From Nitrospinae bacterium RIFCSPLOWO2_12_FULL_45_22 (lineage in GTDB: Bacteria > 2-12-FULL-45-22), in contig MHDQ01000076.1 in NCBI GenBank assembly GCA_001803565.1, positions 1 through 7,443 on the forward strand: a stretch of 7,443 nt of DNA. Reading direction: 5' to 3'. A program made the translations under genes and the position numbers. Positions 1-7,443 of this stretch are shown one piece after another (the first letter of the stretch is position 1; each line of letters begins with the position of its first letter). Below the pieces are notes generated by a model that saw only the letters and a program-made list of their open reading frames with translations, searched no databases and had not been told where the DNA came from.

Positions 1-1088
1 TGACCATTGATCCTGAATCGAAGAGGGTAACGATTGGCCCTGGAAGCACCGGTTCGGACCCCGGTCCGGTTAGCTACAATATGGGGAACGATATTCCTAC
101 CGTGATGGATTGTGTCCTTATACTGGGATTCCTCAATCCGGACAACTACCTGGGCGGCAAGGTGAAATTGGATAAAGAGCTTGCCTTAAAAGCTATACAG
201 GAAAAATGCGCATCGGTTATCGGGGTTGATCCATACCACTTCTCCGAAGGAGTCATAGACCTGATCAATGACAGGATGCGGGAACATATAAAAACCGTCC
301 TCTCGGTTCGGGGATACTCCCCCATGGATTACTACCTTATTGGATACGGAGGGGCGGGGCCCCTTTTTCTTGCCGGATATTCCCATGGGCTTCCCTTTAA
401 AGGGATCTTTACAGTTCCCTGGGCAGCGGCTTTTTCCTCTTTCGGAACAACTGTTATAGACTACATTCATCGGTATCAAAAATCAACCATTATCCAAATT
501 CCCCCGGCCCTGGATGAAAAGGCAAAAGTACAAATAGGCTCCGTTATCAACGGAATATGGGGGGAGCTAGAGAAGAAAGCCCTGCAAGAAATGAAGGAGG
601 AAGGGTTCAGAGAAGAGCAAATAACCTATAACCAGGTGGCTTACTTACGGTTTATGGGTCAACTGGAAGACCTTGAGGTCATATCACCAGTGAGAAGGAT
701 TCAATCGGGTGACGATCTGGATAAACTGCTACAATCCTTCGAAAATCTTTACACAAAGGTCTACACCCATGGGGCTAAGCACTCTGAAGCAGGATACCAG
801 ATACTGGAGCTGGGACTGATAAGTTCAGTACCCAAGCCAAAACCCGTGCTCAAGAAATACCCCCTTGCAGGAAAGAAACCGCCTGAAGGAGCAGAGAAAG
901 GATATAGAGATGTGTATGTAAAGGGCTCCTGGAAGAAAGCTAAGCTGTATGATCTCGATAAACTCGTACCGGGAAATGAGCTAGAGGGACTCGCAATACT
1001 GGAAGCGGCCGCAACGACCATGCCTATACCTGAAGGGAAAAAAGTCGTTATTGATGAATTTATAAGATTCTGGCTAAAGGAGGATTAA
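1..1088 (+). CDS. acxA: Acetone carboxylase beta subunit (HyuA family), C-terminal part, cut by window start
   Basis: The reading frame is open from base 3 with no stop, so the ATG at 81 is internal and the gene begins upstream of the window. About 361 codons are visible, roughly the C-terminal half of a HyuA/acetone carboxylase beta subunit (about 700 residues in known members). Visible family hallmarks are the IGPGSTGSDPGPVSY segment at bases 33-77, the GYGGAGPLFLAGYSHGLPF stretch around bases 342-399 that forms part of the nucleotide-binding fold, and AAAFSSFGTTVIDY just after it. In known acetone carboxylases this subunit binds ATP and phosphorylates the ketone and bicarbonate, working in a cytoplasmic (alpha beta gamma)2 complex. 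The gene is followed after 2 bp by acxB, so the two are surely co-transcribed. Family assignment is firm. The acetone rather than hydantoin or oxoproline call rests on the gamma subunit and CoA-transferase downstream. Confidence 0.9.
   Translation, partial: TIDPESKRVTIGPGSTGSDPGPVSYNMGNDIPTVMDCVLILGFLNPDNYLGGKVKLDKELALKAIQEKCASVIGVDPYHFSEGVIDLINDRMREHIKTVLSVRGYSPMDYYLIGYGGAGPLFLAGYSHGLPFKGIFTVPWAAAFSSFGTTVIDYIHRYQKSTIIQIPPALDEKAKVQIGSVINGIWGELEKKALQEMKEEGFREEQITYNQVAYLRFMGQLEDLEVISPVRRIQSGDDLDKLLQSFENLYTKVYTHGAKHSEAGYQILELGLISSVPKPKPVLKKYPLAGKKPPEGAEKGYRDVYVKGSWKKAKLYDLDKLVPGNELEGLAILEAAATTMPIPEGKKVVIDEFIRFWLKED
1076..1083 (+). promoter_or_regulatory. Ribosome binding site of acxB
   Basis: AAAGGAGG lies inside the last codons of acxA, 7 bases before the GTG at 1091. 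It decides the GTG start of acxB and shows translational coupling with acxA. Confidence 0.8.
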
Positions 1089-1090
1089 GG

Positions 1091-3307
1091 GTGAAGCTAA
1101 CAAAAGAATCCACACAGGGAATCGCCTATAATGGGAAAACCATCAAGGAGCTACTTGAGGAGAGGGATAAAAGAACGGCCAAAAGTGGGTACTACTATGG
1201 CCTTAAGGAACTTGAATTGTACAAAGGAGACCCGATGAAGCTGGAACTTTTTTTTTCACGCCTCCTTGCGGCAACCATCGCGGGAAGGGAGACTACACGG
1301 ATGATATCGGGCTCACCTCAGATCAGGGAGGTAGCAGAGCTGGCTACGGGTCTCTATACTGCCGAGGGGGACTGTGTACTCCAATCTACCGGGATCATCA
1401 TCCATATACCCCTCATGGGAGAGGTGATTAAATGGATGATAAACCAGGATTATGAACATGAGGAAGGAATACATGACGGTGATATCATCACCAGCAACGA
1501 CAACGTTATTGCCGGTATGCATCCCCCGGATGTATATGACATAATCCCTATATTTTACCATGAGAAGCTAGTTGGCTGGGCCGCAACAGTTATCATGGAG
1601 GCAGAGTTAGGGGCGGTTGCCCCGGGGGCCATGTCTTCTGCTGCATCAGAGAGGTTTCTTGACGGGATACGGTTTTCTGCTGAGAAGACCGGGGAGAATG
1701 ATGTTCACTACAAATCCTTTGAGCGGAGGGTGCGCTCCGGGGTACGTTTGCCCGATCTCTTTCTCCTTGACCGGAAAGGCGCTTTGGCAGCCAATATAAA
1801 GGTCCGGGAGGATATAAGAAGGATTATCGAAGAGTTTGGTCTGGATTATTTTATTGAGGCCCAAAGAGAATTGATCGAAATAGAACGTCGGGCGCAACTG
1901 GAACGGGTGAAGAGGCGGACCGTCCCGGGTAAATTTCACGTGCCAGTTACCTTTGAGAACTACATGACCAAAACCTTCGTTCCTCCTCACCATGCCATAG
2001 ATCAGATCAGGTTAGTCCCCATGGATTTCATTATCCAACCCGATGGCAAGTACTTTCTTGATCTTGATGGAGCTGGACCGTGGGGCTGGCATCCATCAAA
2101 CACAACCCCTTCATCCATGAGGGGGGCTATGTGCCTGCTCCTATCTCAGACCATTGCTTATACCGGGGCAGCCAACGAAGGGACCATGATGTGTGTTGAC
2201 ATGAACCTCCCTTATGACTCTTATGTGAACCCCAGTTCCAAAAACATTGCCACTGGTAACCTTTTCAGTTTTCCCATAAACGGAGGTGGGGCCTGGTTGA
2301 GGTTACAATCCATGGCCTTTTTTTCTCGGGGTTTTGTGGAGGAATGTATTGCCGGTTCCCCAACTTCTGCCACTTTTGGCATGTCCGGTAAAGACCATTA
2401 CGGCAACGATTTTGGGTTCCTCATGACAGATATAGCCGGAACCTGTGGAAGCGGGGCCTTTGCCATAAGGGATGGGCTTACCGGGCACGCACCCTGGCAA
2501 CCAGTAAGTGATATGGGAAATGTGGAGGTGTGGGAACTCTTCTTACCCCTATCCTGGACCGGAAGGGGGTTGCTCCCCAACTCCTGCGGTTGGGGAAAAT
2601 ACCGGGGTGGATTCTCCATCATGGCTACCTGGATGGTTTATAAGAGCCAACTCCTGGGTTTAGACATCACACCCGTTGTACTACTGGATAAAATTTATCC
2701 TAACTCCGGTATGTTTGGCGGATACACCGGGACAGGACCCTTCTACAAGATGGTCGAGGGCGCAAATACCGAAACGTTATTACAGGAAAAACTTCCTCTC
2801 CTGCACCACTATGGACATCCCTTAAATCCAGATATGGAGAAAAATATCCAGGGAAGACATTTGCTGGAAACCTCCCGGGGAGTCTCCATACCGGGTGTTT
2901 TCCGGCATGGCGACTGGCTTCAGGTACACTATGGCCAGCAAGCAGGGGGATTTGGCGACCCCATAAAAAGAGATACCGGATTAATCAAGAAAGACCTGGA
3001 CAGTGGCCTGATCACCCTTGAAATCTCCGGGAAGATATTCGGCATGGCTGCTTCCTATGACGAACATAGAGAGGAATGGATAATAGATCAGGATAAAACC
3101 ATTAAACTCAGGGAGGAAAAGAAGAAGGAAAGACTCAGGAAGGGTATACCGGTTAAGGAATGGTGGAAAAAGAGGAGAAAAGACCTCCTTCAGGGAAAGA
3201 TGCCGGAACTCATGAAGGATATGTATAACTGTTCCCTGGACAAAGGTGAACACTGGTCGAGGAACTTCAAATCGTTCTGGATGCTCCGGGATGATTTCAC
3301 TTTTTAA
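1091..3307 (+). CDS. acxB: Acetone carboxylase alpha subunit (HyuB family), divergent metal site
   Basis: 738 residues with a GTG start set by AAAGGAGG 7 bases upstream. Length and end-to-end pattern fit acetone carboxylase alpha: TIKELLEERDKRTAKSGYYYGL near the N-terminus, GDIITSND (residues 130-137), GMHPPD (142-147), KYRGG in the C-terminal third, and an ending WMLRDDFTF typical of the family. In the published Xanthobacter enzyme this subunit holds the Mn site, using two His and one Asp (His150, Asp153, His175 as I recall them), where phosphorylated acetone and carboxy-phosphate react to acetoacetate. Here His144 and Asp147 match the first two ligands, but the third position, 25 residues after the first His, falls on Met169 (VIMEAELGA), and the neighbouring conserved Asp is Glu172. 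The gene may therefore be a variant with another metal, substrate or chemistry. A run of nine T at 1248-1256 lies within the frame. The family call is firm; exact substrate is inferred. Confidence 0.9.
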   Translation: MKLTKESTQGIAYNGKTIKELLEERDKRTAKSGYYYGLKELELYKGDPMKLELFFSRLLAATIAGRETTRMISGSPQIREVAELATGLYTAEGDCVLQSTGIIIHIPLMGEVIKWMINQDYEHEEGIHDGDIITSNDNVIAGMHPPDVYDIIPIFYHEKLVGWAATVIMEAELGAVAPGAMSSAASERFLDGIRFSAEKTGENDVHYKSFERRVRSGVRLPDLFLLDRKGALAANIKVREDIRRIIEEFGLDYFIEAQRELIEIERRAQLERVKRRTVPGKFHVPVTFENYMTKTFVPPHHAIDQIRLVPMDFIIQPDGKYFLDLDGAGPWGWHPSNTTPSSMRGAMCLLLSQTIAYTGAANEGTMMCVDMNLPYDSYVNPSSKNIATGNLFSFPINGGGAWLRLQSMAFFSRGFVEECIAGSPTSATFGMSGKDHYGNDFGFLMTDIAGTCGSGAFAIRDGLTGHAPWQPVSDMGNVEVWELFLPLSWTGRGLLPNSCGWGKYRGGFSIMATWMVYKSQLLGLDITPVVLLDKIYPNSGMFGGYTGTGPFYKMVEGANTETLLQEKLPLLHHYGHPLNPDMEKNIQGRHLLETSRGVSIPGVFRHGDWLQVHYGQQAGGFGDPIKRDTGLIKKDLDSGLITLEISGKIFGMAASYDEHREEWIIDQDKTIKLREEKKKERLRKGIPVKEWWKKRRKDLLQGKMPELMKDMYNCSLDKGEHWSRNFKSFWMLRDDFTF

Positions 3308-3336: not shown

Positions 3337-3891
3337 ATGTCCAAGATTACGTATAACAAAGAAATAATAGGCGATCTCATGGATGGGAAGCTAGACTGGC
3401 ATAGGACGAAAGCAATCATAAGTGGTCACAAAGATGAAGACCGCTTTGAGAAACACCTCGAAGCCCTTAGTGAAAGGACTCCCTGGAAAGAGAAAATCCT
3501 TCTCCCGCTCACCGATGAGCTTTTTATCGTGGCGAAGGGGACGGAAAGAATTATAAAATGCCGTTGCGGTTATGAATATGGCGATTACAGAGAAAACTGG
3601 AAACTAAGTGCTCTGATCCATGTCAGGGAAACAGAGGAAGAGATAAACGAACTCTATCCCTATCCCAGTAAGCCAGATCCCCAGTATTGTGAAATAAGGG
3701 AGTTCTACTGTCCCGGCTGTGGCACCCAGTTGGAGGTAGAAACGGTTCCCTTTGGTTATCCTTTAGTATTTGATTTCCTCCCTGATCTGGACACTTTCTA
3801 CCGCGAATGGCTTAAAAAACCCCTGGATAATGAGAAAGAGTTCAAGGACCTTACTTACGATGTCATTAAATGCTGGGCCAAGGAAGGATAG
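3337..3891 (+). CDS. acxC: Acetone carboxylase gamma subunit
   Basis: 184 residues, close to the usual size (about 170) of the small gamma subunit of acetone carboxylase and related ketone carboxylases. Two cysteine clusters are visible: CRC at residues 75-77, and Cys118 plus CPGC at 125-128. These would form the structural zinc site known for this family. The segment GYPLVFDFLPDLDTFYREWL (140-159) is a typical family C-terminal signature. In the known complex the gamma subunit bridges alpha and beta and has no separate catalytic role. Its presence is the main evidence that the HyuA/HyuB pair upstream is a ketone carboxylase and not a hydantoinase or 5-oxoprolinase, which lack this subunit. 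It starts 29 bp after acxB, and 50 bp separate its stop from the start chosen for the CoA-transferase A gene. Confidence 0.88.
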   Translation: MSKITYNKEIIGDLMDGKLDWHRTKAIISGHKDEDRFEKHLEALSERTPWKEKILLPLTDELFIVAKGTERIIKCRCGYEYGDYRENWKLSALIHVRETEEEINELYPYPSKPDPQYCEIREFYCPGCGTQLEVETVPFGYPLVFDFLPDLDTFYREWLKKPLDNEKEFKDLTYDVIKCWAKEG

Positions 3892-3941: not shown

Positions 3942-4664
3942 ATGACAAGCAAAGTATTTTCGAGTTTTGCAGAGGCCATTTATGATATCGGTGATGGAGC
4001 GACTATTGCGATTGGTGGGTTTGGTGGATCGGTCGGAATGGCACAAAATCTTATTTTGGCCTTACGTGACAAAGGATCCAAAGATCTCACCCTTATTAGT
4101 AATACCGGGGGATTATGTGAGCTATCCCTGGGAGGATTTATTGCAGGAACTTATGTCGATCATGCAATCTTGTTTCAGAATAAGCAGGTAAAAAAAATGA
4201 TCGGCTCCTATCTTGGTTCACCTTCACCCACTACCCTGAGTTCTCTCGAAAAACAATGGCAGGCGGGAGAAGTGGAAGTAGAGACCTTGCCCCAAGGAAC
4301 ACTTTCGGCAAGAATGTTAGCGGGGGGTGCCGGTTATGGTGGTATTTACATACCGACTGGTGTAGGGACAATTGTAGAAAAGGGAAAAGAAAAGAGGATT
4401 ATTCATGGGAAGGAATATATCCTTGAGTTTCCTCTTAAACCAGAGTTTGCCTTTGTCAGGGCTTATAAAGCAGATACCACAGGCAACTTGATCTACCGTT
4501 TAGCTGCCAGAAATATGAACCCCATAGCAGCTAAAGCAGCTAGCGTCACTATCGTGGAGGTAGATGAAATTGTTGATCCAGGAGGACTTGATCCGGATAT
4601 TATTGTTACACCCGGTATATACGTCCATCGCATGGTCAAGATACCAAAGGGAGGAAAAAAATGA
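3942..4664 (+). CDS. scoA: 3-oxoacid CoA-transferase subunit A
   Basis: 240 residues from the ATG at 3942. The frame is open back to 3870, but the family N-terminus (MTSKVFSSFAEAIYDIGDGA) begins at 3942, and the upstream codons overlap the end of acxC and look non-coding. The ribosome site is less ideal than its neighbours: GGAGG lies 13 bases upstream, with GGGG immediately before the start. Family features are ATIAIGGFGG near the N-terminus, DLTLISNTGG, VKKMIGSYLG, a glycine-rich GGAGYGGIYIPTGVGT stretch, ADTTGNLIYR and a closing IVTPGIYVHRMVKI. With subunit B it would move CoA from succinyl-CoA or acetyl-CoA to acetoacetate, giving acetoacetyl-CoA from the carboxylase product. The donor cannot be told from sequence, so atoD would be an equally fair symbol. 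The segment after GGFGG (SVGMAQNLI) departs from the common LCGIPENLI form. Confidence 0.88.
   Translation: MTSKVFSSFAEAIYDIGDGATIAIGGFGGSVGMAQNLILALRDKGSKDLTLISNTGGLCELSLGGFIAGTYVDHAILFQNKQVKKMIGSYLGSPSPTTLSSLEKQWQAGEVEVETLPQGTLSARMLAGGAGYGGIYIPTGVGTIVEKGKEKRIIHGKEYILEFPLKPEFAFVRAYKADTTGNLIYRLAARNMNPIAAKAASVTIVEVDEIVDPGGLDPDIIVTPGIYVHRMVKIPKGGKK
4646..4654 (+). promoter_or_regulatory. Ribosome binding site of CoA-transferase subunit B
   Basis: AAAGGGAGG ends 6 bases before the ATG at 4661 and lies inside the end of subunit A. With the ATGA stop/start overlap this indicates coupled translation, giving equal subunit amounts. Confidence 0.75.
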
Positions 4665-5332
4665 AGAGGACCCTTGATAATGAGACAATGGCAAAGAGAG
4701 TAGCCCAGGAGTTTGAAGATGGAATGGTCGTCAACCTGGGATTTGGTATGCCAATTTTAGCCGCTAATTTTGTCCCCGAAGGAAAGAGAATATTTTTTCA
4801 TGCTGAAAACGGGATTCTCGGGTATGGCTCTATTATCCAGGAAGGGCAAGACATAGACCCTGATCTGATAAATCCCGGCGGGCTATATGTAAGACCCCTT
4901 CCCGGCATGTCTGTGTTCAATCATGAAGAGGCATTTGACATGATACGGGGAGGACATGTTGACCTGGTAGTATTGGGTGCCCTGCAGGTCTCTAAAAATG
5001 GTGATCTGGCTAACTGGTTCAATCCAGCCAAAGGGATAGGCAACATCGGGGGAGCAATGGATTTGGCAGTGGGAGCCAAAAAAGTCATTGTGGTCATGGA
5101 ACACACAACCAAGGATGGAAAGTCCAAAATTTTAAATGAATGTACCTTTCCTCTTACTGCCAGGGAATGTGTTGATATGATAATATCTGATATTGCTACT
5201 ATTGAGCTGACCCCTGGGGGAATGATTCTCAAGGAGGTTGCTCCTGGCTGGTCCTCCGAAGAGGTTCAATCGCTGACTGAGCCCCACCTGATAGTCGCCG
5301 ATGATTTGAAGGAAATGGACCTCAGGGTATGA
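4661..5332 (+). CDS. scoB: 3-oxoacid CoA-transferase subunit B
   Basis: 223 residues, typical for subunit B (about 215). Its ATG overlaps the TGA of subunit A by 4 bp. The catalytic glutamate, which forms the covalent glutamyl-CoA intermediate in this family, is Glu49 in the HAENGILGYG motif (the SENG/AENG box). Other family marks are VVNLGFGMP, DLINPGGLYVRPLPGMSVFN, RGGHVDLVVLGALQVSKNGDLANW, GIGNIGGAMDLAVGAKKVIVVMEHTTKDG and LTPGGMILKEVAPGWS. It forms the active CoA-transferase with subunit A and completes conversion of the carboxylase product to acetoacetyl-CoA. It is the last gene of the operon. No clear hairpin-plus-T terminator follows; instead, sequence matching a thiolase in antisense begins directly at its stop codon. 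Confidence 0.92.
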   Translation: MKRTLDNETMAKRVAQEFEDGMVVNLGFGMPILAANFVPEGKRIFFHAENGILGYGSIIQEGQDIDPDLINPGGLYVRPLPGMSVFNHEEAFDMIRGGHVDLVVLGALQVSKNGDLANWFNPAKGIGNIGGAMDLAVGAKKVIVVMEHTTKDGKSKILNECTFPLTARECVDMIISDIATIELTPGGMILKEVAPGWSSEEVQSLTEPHLIVADDLKEMDLRV

Positions 5333-5482
5333 ACCCGAATTAATATCTTCTCTAACCTTACCCCGGGGACTAAATTGCAAGTCCTCCATGAAAATGGCCT
5401 CAGTAATGGAAAAACAATCATGCACCTCTGCCATACTGATCTCTTCTCTGGGGAAGTGGTTGCACATAGGTTGCATTTTTGC
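5333..5482 (-). pseudogene. Fragment of an SCP-x type thiolase (acetyl-CoA acetyltransferase-like)
   Basis: Read on the minus strand, this stretch encodes EEISMAEVHDCFSITEAIFM followed by EDLQFSPRGKVREDINSG. The AEVHDCF box with a following TE...EDL.F...G pattern is characteristic of SCP-x type thiolases, where HDCF supplies an active-site histidine. Only about 45-50 codons remain of a protein of about 390. The recognisable part runs to the base after the CoA-transferase stop codon (5332), and upstream of about 5482 similarity fades and a stop (5510-5512) appears. There is no ribosome site before the ATG codons at 5476 or 5434. I read it as a remnant left by recombination or deletion. A thiolase would be the natural next enzyme after acetoacetyl-CoA formation, so the scrap may come from a related catabolic locus. 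The identification is by motif memory only. Confidence 0.55.
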
Positions 5483-5488
5483 TAATAT

Positions 5489-5516
5489 TTTACTAGTTTT
5501 TAATAAGATTTATACC
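5489..5516 (+). promoter_or_regulatory. Weak candidate promoter for the tRNA-Ser(CGA) gene
   Basis: TTTACT (5489-5494) and TATACC (5511-5516) are spaced 16 bases in an AT-rich tract, each matching four of six consensus bases. If the tRNA region was cut off from its original upstream promoter by insertion, something here must drive tRNA-Ser(CGA). The match is weak and could be chance. Confidence 0.2.
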
Positions 5517-5552
5517 CTGAAACTCTTGAGGATATTGATATTCCTGATTTCC

Positions 5553-5602
5553 GAGACGGATTGCGGATCCGTAGGTCAGAGGTTCAAATCCTCTTGGGCG
5601 CG
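5553..5602 (+). pseudogene. 3' half of a tRNA-Arg gene (probable attachment-site scar)
   Basis: A complete anticodon arm is present: stem ACGGA (5556-5560) pairing TCCGT (5568-5572), loop TTGCGGA with anticodon GCG (5563-5565). It is followed by a 5-base variable loop, a perfect T arm (AGAGG, TTCAAAT, CCTCT; 5578-5594), the 3' acceptor strand TGGGCGC (5595-5601) and discriminator G5602. The expected partner GCGCCCA/G and the D arm are absent upstream; the sequence turns AT-rich just before the anticodon stem. No CCA follows directly, the next bases being CTACACCA. The acceptor sequence and the Arg anticodon point to tRNA-Arg. A 3' fragment starting at the anticodon arm is what remains at the distal end of an element that integrated into a tRNA gene by a tyrosine recombinase, so 5553-5602 may be an att core. 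Confidence 0.75.
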
Positions 5603-5622
5603 CTACACCAATAATGACAGGC

Positions 5623-5711
5623 GGAGAGATGGCCGAGTGGTTGAAGGCGGTTGATTCGAAATCAATTGAGCGGTTAATCCTGCTCCGGGGGTTCGAATCC
5701 CTCTCTCTCCG
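5623..5711 (+). tRNA. tRNA-Ser(CGA)
   Basis: The acceptor stem GGAGAGA (5623-5629) pairs fully with TCTCTCC (5704-5710), and G5711 is the discriminator. The anticodon arm is GTTGA, loop TTCGAAA, TCAAT, with anticodon CGA at 5657-5659, reading UCG. A long variable arm (GAGC...GCTC) marks a class II serine tRNA. The T arm is GGGGG, TTCGAAT, CCCTC with one G-U pair. The 3' CCA is not encoded (bases after the discriminator are TCAA), so it must be added after transcription. It lies 20 bp after the tRNA-Arg fragment and would originally have been co-transcribed with it. Confidence 0.95.
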
Positions 5712-5718
5712 TCAATAA

Positions 5719-6029: not shown

Positions 6030-6122
6030 GGAGAGGTGCAAGAGCGGTTTAATTGGCACGCCTGGAGAGCGTGTGGGCGGCTAAAACCTGCCCCGTGGGT
6101 TCGAATCCCACCCTCTCCGCCA
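6030..6122 (+). tRNA. tRNA-Ser(GGA)
   Basis: The acceptor stem GGAGAGG (6030-6036) pairs with CCTCTCC (6112-6118); discriminator G6119 is followed by an encoded CCA (6120-6122). The anticodon arm is CACGC (6057-6061), loop CTGGAGA, GCGTG (6069-6073), with anticodon GGA at 6064-6066 reading UCC and UCU. The long variable arm GGGCGG...CCTGCCC is that of a class II serine tRNA. The T arm is GTGGG, TTCGAAT, CCCAC. The D arm is short, CAA pairing TTG. Unlike the serine tRNA gene upstream, this one encodes its CCA. Confidence 0.96.
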
Positions 6123-7252: not shown

Positions 7253-7364
7253 CTTCTATTAGTAAAAGAGGTGAAAGTGCTACCAAATAACCTTGACCAA
7301 AAAAACGGTGTTAAGTTATCATAATGTCTAAGATCAAGTCAAGTATTTTTATCATGGTGTCAAG

Positions 7365-7412
7365 CCAAAATAGAAATGTCCGGTTTTTACCAAAATAGAA
7401 ATGTCCGGTTTT
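7365..7412. repeat. Tandem pair of a 23-bp repeat, possible insertion-sequence terminus
   Basis: Two identical 23-bp copies lie at 7365-7387 and 7390-7412, a 25-bp period. Each starts CCAAAATAG, contains AAATGTCC and ends GGTTTT. Arrays of this AAATAGAAATGTCC type resemble the repeated terminal sequences of some integrase-type insertion sequences (IS21 or IS481/ISNCY-like), where they bind the transposase. No transposase lies in the window; it would have to start to the right of 7443. An operator-like protein-binding array is the alternative. The remaining upstream region (7253-7364) holds no gene that I can support. Confidence 0.5.
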
Positions 7413-7443
7413 AAGGTACTGGAAGTATCCGTTCTCTCTCCTT

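Follow-up and report, generated by a model that had tools for sequence, protein, structure and literature searches.

An orphan tRNA-Arg 3′ half beside an acetone carboxylase-type operon as the probable end of an integrated element in a Nitrospinae draft genome

Results

Positions 5454-5602 of contig MHDQ01000076.1 from Nitrospinae bacterium RIFCSPLOWO2_12_FULL_45_22 are best explained as one end of a prophage or genomic island integrated in a tRNA-Arg(GCG) gene, a reading to which we give a probability of about 0.85. That the junction is the scar of a mobile-element integration, with the 3′ half of the tRNA gene displaced by crossover in the anticodon loop, is held with high confidence. Support for the scar reading, as put forward in the original prediction, comes from a repeated terminus, from junctions of the same kind in a phage contig as well as in other genomes, and from the neighbourhood of tRNA-Arg and tRNA-Ser genes elsewhere. 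The event is ordinary in kind and is documented from one end; what is unusual is the likely cargo and the little-known lineage.

The window, i.e. the whole stretch of 7,443 nucleotides that was analysed, is a complete contig (C76) of a draft genome (G000) comprising 321 contigs and 3.67 Mb and estimated to be 85% complete. Base 1 is the contig end, which cuts into hyuA. The comparison set contained one other genome of the same phylum, G001, which belongs to the same order as the source genome. C numbers denote contigs, and L numbers the loci or contigs that were compared. The features of the junction, all on the plus strand, are as follows.

5454..5551, plus strand: presumed terminus of the integrated element (one attachment-site arm), 79% identical to C258:6434-6532
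5458..5475, plus strand: GGTTGCA repeat pair with an 11-base period (GGTTGCACATAGGTTGCA), putative integrase arm-type sites, the same 18-mer being present in C258, L113 and L120
5556..5602, plus strand: displaced 3′ part of tRNA-Arg(GCG), from the sequence, the likeness to G001 and Infernal
5561..5567, plus strand: anticodon loop TTGCGGA with anticodon GCG (Arg), by direct reading
5622..5713, plus strand: intact tRNA-Ser(CGA), right chromosomal flank (ARAGORN; Infernal 59.1 bits)
6030..6122, plus strand: intact tRNA-Ser(GGA), right chromosomal flank (ARAGORN; Infernal 50.1 bits)

The tRNA-Arg fragment and its right flank

By direct reading, the fragment consists of an anticodon arm, a variable region, a T arm, the acceptor 3′ strand and the discriminator. 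The anticodon stem is formed by ACGGA (5556-5560) and TCCGT (5568-5572) and the T stem by AGAGG (5578-5582) and CCTCT (5590-5594) with the T loop TTCAAAT; the acceptor 3′ strand TGGGCGC (5595-5601) is followed by the discriminator G at 5602. The 3′ end reads CTA, compared with the CCA encoded in the relative. The fragment had been predicted to span 5553-5602, which held for 5556-5602, whereas the three bases 5553-5555 are not clearly of tRNA character. Aligned end to end with the intact tRNA-Arg(GCG) of G001, 44 of 50 bases were identical, and a BLAST search of the source genome with that gene as query yielded a match of 45 bases at 93% identity (E 5e-13). This likeness to tRNA-Arg(GCG) is far beyond chance. 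ARAGORN called no gene at 5556-5602, and the Infernal score of 25.6 bits lies below the gathering score of 29 bits. No trace of a 5′ half could be observed in the adjoining 41 bases upstream, where 78% of shuffles scored as high against the tRNA-Arg 5′ half, indicating that the break at the fragment is sharp, and BLAST revealed no tRNA-Arg 5′ half elsewhere in the source assembly. Both direct reading and BLAST thus confirmed an orphan tRNA-Arg 3′ half that lacks its 5′ half and is followed by an intact tRNA-Ser.

The discriminator of the fragment is separated from the start of tRNA-Ser(CGA) by 19 bases. An uninterrupted pair of these tRNA genes, which the prediction had proposed to look for in related genomes, was found as neighbours in three genomes, none of them closely related to the source genome. 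In G018, tRNA-Arg(GCG) and tRNA-Ser(CGA) lie 11 bases apart on one strand, and in G058 and G022 a tRNA-Arg (GCG or ACG) is located less than 1 kb upstream of tRNA-Ser(CGA). This order indicates that the 3′ half of the window is in its natural place and that the change is on its left. A stretch of about 23 bases (ccaaaatagaaatgtccggttt), resembling an insertion sequence end, was also observed in two copies at 7360-7413, near the right end of the contig.

A second copy of the terminus

The 98-base stretch 5454-5551 has one other match in the genome, at C258:6434-6532 (79% identity, E 1.3e-16); the alignment scored 94, and the best of 2000 shuffles reached 30. The C258 copy runs into a second orphan tRNA 3′ half, which is tRNA-Val(TAC)-like (anticodon loop CTTACAA) and is followed by an intact tRNA-Asp(GTC). 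Such breakage of two different tRNAs beside one and the same non-tRNA sequence points to two related integrated elements and not to random deletion or misassembly. Several kb of metabolic and regulatory genes adjoin the C258 terminus, as in islands. The interior of this further junction, from the same family of elements (L088, C258:590-6572), carries PqqD-like and radical-SAM-like genes, a sigma-54-type regulator and a transposase-like fragment, all named by reading. An exact 25-mer of the terminus had no match in the viral contigs, and a search of the phage collection with 5440-5625 gave tRNA matches only.

Paired arm sites and matching junctions

The candidate integrase arm-site stretch of the window is GGTTGCACATA, and the GGTTGCA repeats are a putative pair of integrase arm-type binding sites. 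The distance from GGTTGCACATAGGTTGCA to the anticodon loop is 103 bases in the window, 104 in C258 and 93 in L113 (IMGVR_UViG_3300015370_000504), where it leads to an orphan tRNA-Gly(TCC) 3′ half. The 18-mer is present in five IMG/VR contigs. L113 is a phage-like contig of 9.9 kb with genes for a terminase, a capsid/protease, a portal and a tyrosine integrase. Its att repeats of 45 bases lie near both ends and extend from the anticodon loop to the CCA, with a GGTTGCA pair inside each. No tail gene was seen between positions 1 and 9854 of this contig, which is bounded by the tRNA-Gly repeats; a satellite that forms capsids is one possible identity. The reading frame of the L113 integrase runs on across the arm sites and the tRNA core.

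A search pattern covering the entire junction (GGTTGCANNNNGGTTGCA, then 80-110 bases, then a T arm) matched three viral and six genome loci. The same junction as in the window was shown by L113, L118 and L120, and a tRNA 3′ end by L117. The junction of L118, from a deltaproteobacterium, holds an orphan tRNA-Thr(CGT)-like half, and that of L120, from an alphaproteobacterium, an orphan tRNA-Ser(GGA) half. L120 is two-ended: an intact tRNA-Ser(GGA) is followed by an arm pair, 1.4 kb, a further arm pair and the orphan 3′ half, with a repeat of 65 bases. Among 386 genomes the pattern occurred only in the source genome, twice, and a control pattern with reversed arms gave no matches in the viral collection. 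The tiny 1.4-kb island of L120 (3382-4890), with arm pairs at both ends, contains small membrane-protein frames and no integrase and is possibly a minimal passenger element.

Several of the remaining matches may well be due to chance. L116 and L121 are without a convincing tRNA, and in L110 the pattern matched within a gene. In L119 (6790-6925), L122 (6761-6908) and L123 (4116-4259), from Duganella, Nocardioides and a Chloroflexi draft, the GGTTGCA pair stands just upstream of an intact tRNA-Leu, -Ser and -Gln, respectively; these pairs may be chance occurrences, empty sites or mirror-type ends. A tandem array of 11-base GGTTGCAC(A/C)TA units was observed at 518-656 of viral contig L112, with no integrase detected nearby; in that contig the unit may have a different function.

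The anticodon loop 5561-5567 is the probable site of strand exchange, by analogy with C258 and L113, in which tRNA identity starts at this point. In these two junctions the 5′ and 3′ strands of the anticodon stem are not complementary, which marks the 5′ strand as DNA of the element. The stem of the window, by contrast, is fully paired, so that either the shared core is five bases longer or the element sequence happens to match. The junction anatomy shared with the phage contig and other genomes supports a crossover in the anticodon arm, as had been proposed, and both the terminus repeated to the left of the fragment and the matching junctions place the element on that side, again as proposed.

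Comparison with known systems and other tRNA integration sites

Lambda-type integrases use paired arm sites around a core, and crossover in tRNA genes commonly takes place at the anticodon loop (PMC10865867, PMC8371274, PMC4383910). The anatomy of the window, with the core at the anticodon loop, the arm pair about 100 bases inside and the 3′ half outside, fits integration of this type. In the Islander collection (PMC4383910), a 3′ fragment was found in 3760 of 3919 islands and the anticodon site in 2083, 5′ fragments being a minority (159 of 3919). The window resembles these islands in a displaced fragment that starts at the anticodon loop and runs to the 3′ end, with the element on its 5′ side and a chromosomal tRNA cluster opposite; it differs in showing one end only and in the ketone-catabolism operon as its likely cargo. 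With L113 it shares the identical GGTTGCACATAGGTTGCA pair before an orphan 3′ half and the anticodon-loop crossover. However, L113 uses tRNA-Gly(TCC) and the window tRNA-Arg, and the terminase, capsid, portal and integrase genes belong to L113, whose integrase reached 27% identity at best with the integrases of the source genome.

The integration would have proceeded as follows. The target would be a chromosomal tRNA-Arg(GCG) standing just before tRNA-Ser(CGA). A lambda-type tyrosine recombinase, its N-terminal domain holding the GGTTGCA pair about 103 bases inside the junction, would exchange strands within the anticodon loop or next to it. The gene would be rebuilt at the far (left) end with the tRNA 3′ half that the element brings along, and the original 3′ half would be pushed to the right end, where it is now presumably non-functional. 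Everything to the left of the crossover, including the operon, would then lie inside the element, barring later deletion. The rebuilt tRNA-Arg and the integrase are expected parts of this scheme. No intact tRNA-Arg(GCG) was found in the 85%-complete assembly, no integrase gene was present in the window, and none of the integrase loci of the source genome has GGTTGCA arms. Phage or transfer genes were likewise not found in the window. The tRNAs typed in this draft also lacked tRNA-Val(TAC), tRNA-Arg(TCT), tRNA-Arg(CCT), tRNA-His and tRNA-Phe; since His, Phe and other tRNAs are missing too, the absence of tRNA-Arg(GCG) is weak evidence.

Further traces of integration were observed at other tRNA genes. 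An orphan 5′ half of tRNA-Gly(GCC), a mirror-type integration, lies on the minus strand of C123 (L084, 10539-10602) beside genes that include a D5-type primase/helicase, and on C222 (L083, 113-1276) an integrase gene immediately precedes an intact tRNA-Gly(GCC). The ends of both contigs have a common block consisting of the upstream flank and the tRNA-Gly(GCC) 5′ half. An integrase of the same type stands directly upstream of tRNA-Arg(CCG) in C80 of the source genome (L052, 2978-4138), and in G001 tRNA-Arg(GCG) is immediately preceded by a truncated one of 112 aa (L055, C31:4375-4767). Same-type integrases at tRNA-Gly and tRNA-Arg genes indicate that elements often integrate into tRNA genes in this lineage. 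The C80-type integrase was ruled out as the integrase of the window's element, as its arms differ.

The operon to the left of the junction

The following genes lie between the left contig end and the terminus.

3..1088, plus strand: acetone carboxylase beta-type subunit (hydantoinase A family), truncated at its 5′ end by the contig boundary (Pfam PF19278/PF01968; best solved relative 5m45_B)
1091..3307, plus strand: acetone carboxylase alpha-type subunit (hydantoinase B family) (Pfam PF02538; 5m45_A, E 8.5e-114)
3337..3891, plus strand: acetone carboxylase gamma subunit (Pfam PF08882, E 9.8e-41; 5svb_C, E 2.4e-44)
3942..4664, plus strand: 3-oxoacid CoA-transferase subunit A (TIGR02429, above cut-off)
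4661..5332, plus strand: 3-oxoacid CoA-transferase subunit B (TIGR02428, above cut-off)
5335..5440, minus strand: thiolase remnant (C-terminal domain), immediately next to the terminus (Pfam PF22691, E 1.7e-6, 39 residues)

In sequence comparison, all three carboxylase subunits are closest to the acetone carboxylases 5m45 and 5svb, which they match better than acetophenone carboxylase. They are distant in sequence from these solved enzymes, and acetone is their predicted substrate. The carboxylase genes are followed by those of a 3-oxoacid CoA-transferase, as in an acetone carboxylase operon. Acetone is converted to acetoacetate, then to acetoacetyl-CoA and finally to acetyl-CoA, and the carboxylase, the CoA-transferase and the thiolase remnant presumably represent these steps. 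No N-terminal continuation of HyuA was found at contig ends of the source genome; one weak match lay in a 1425-aa frame.

The operon probably lies inside the element, and we lean, with less assurance, towards its having arrived together with it. This assignment as cargo, which the prediction had also made, is based on position and on the rarity of the operon in relatives: the genes stand on the element side of the scar, and a search of 385 other genomes detected HyuB in only 2, at 34% identity. The prediction as a whole was partly borne out. The GC content of the operon is like that of the rest, so that composition is neutral, and no mobile gene is present in the window. A single-protein search of the genome contigs yielded no relatives of HyuB. 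Among the best matches on plasmids, mostly rhizobial megaplasmids, identity was 35-37%, and no link to the window was seen. The thiolase remnant touching the terminus indicates that rearrangement has occurred here.

Discussion

The reading of 5454-5602 as one end of an integrated element has to be weighed against several alternatives. The attachment scar may be real and the operon nevertheless not cargo, if the element was mostly deleted or rearranged and a short terminus was joined to chromosomal genes. The broken, opposite-strand thiolase remnant directly against the terminus would agree with this, as would the neutral composition and the window devoid of mobile-element genes; however, the C258 terminus also adjoins several kb of genes of the kind seen in islands, and the rarity of the operon in relatives speaks against it as well, so that we regard this alternative as unlikely. 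Very unlikely is a tRNA-Arg that was broken and never rebuilt, its replacement being supplied by the element, as in tRNA-dependent lysogeny (PMC10865867). Fionnbharth and other phages of that kind have a lambda-like integrase and paired arms flanking a core in the tRNA gene, a core of only about 10 bases that leaves the tRNA not rebuilt, whereas the long shared cores of L113 and L120 rebuild the 3′ half. The intact forms of both interrupted types, tRNA-Arg(GCG) and tRNA-Val(TAC), are indeed missing from the assembly, but so are the essential His, Phe and Arg TCT tRNAs in this 85%-complete draft. A speculative extension, to be read as a long shot, is that related elements with one arm system have brought metabolic sets, one of them for acetone to acetyl-CoA, into different tRNAs of this phylum, with at least one tRNA unrebuilt and the host dependent on the element.

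Explanations that dispense with a mobile element fare worse still. A decayed tRNA-Arg pseudogene, or deletion of a 5′ half, would agree with the missing CCA that the relative encodes, but it leaves unexplained why the same terminus stands beside a second broken tRNA and why arm pair and spacing are common to the phage junctions; we consider it highly improbable. A chimera in which two unrelated sequences were joined at the tRNA during assembly is conceivable in a draft of 321 contigs, yet a second, diverged copy of the junction exists on another contig and the same anatomy recurs in other genomes, which makes an assembly error scarcely credible. A functional half of a tRNA that is split or contains an intron would agree with the complete anticodon arm. 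The chance of this is, however, close to nil, as the 5′ half is nowhere in the assembly and none lies downstream in the window, and as the break falls before the anticodon arm and is accompanied by attachment-site anatomy.

The one-ended signature found here, a GGTTGCA pair followed after about 80-110 bases by an orphan tRNA 3′ half, locates element ends in fragmented drafts and works where the usual two-ended test fails. If the operon is indeed cargo of the element integrated in tRNA-Arg(GCG), the use of acetone or ketones would be a transferable trait in this sparsely sampled bacterial lineage.
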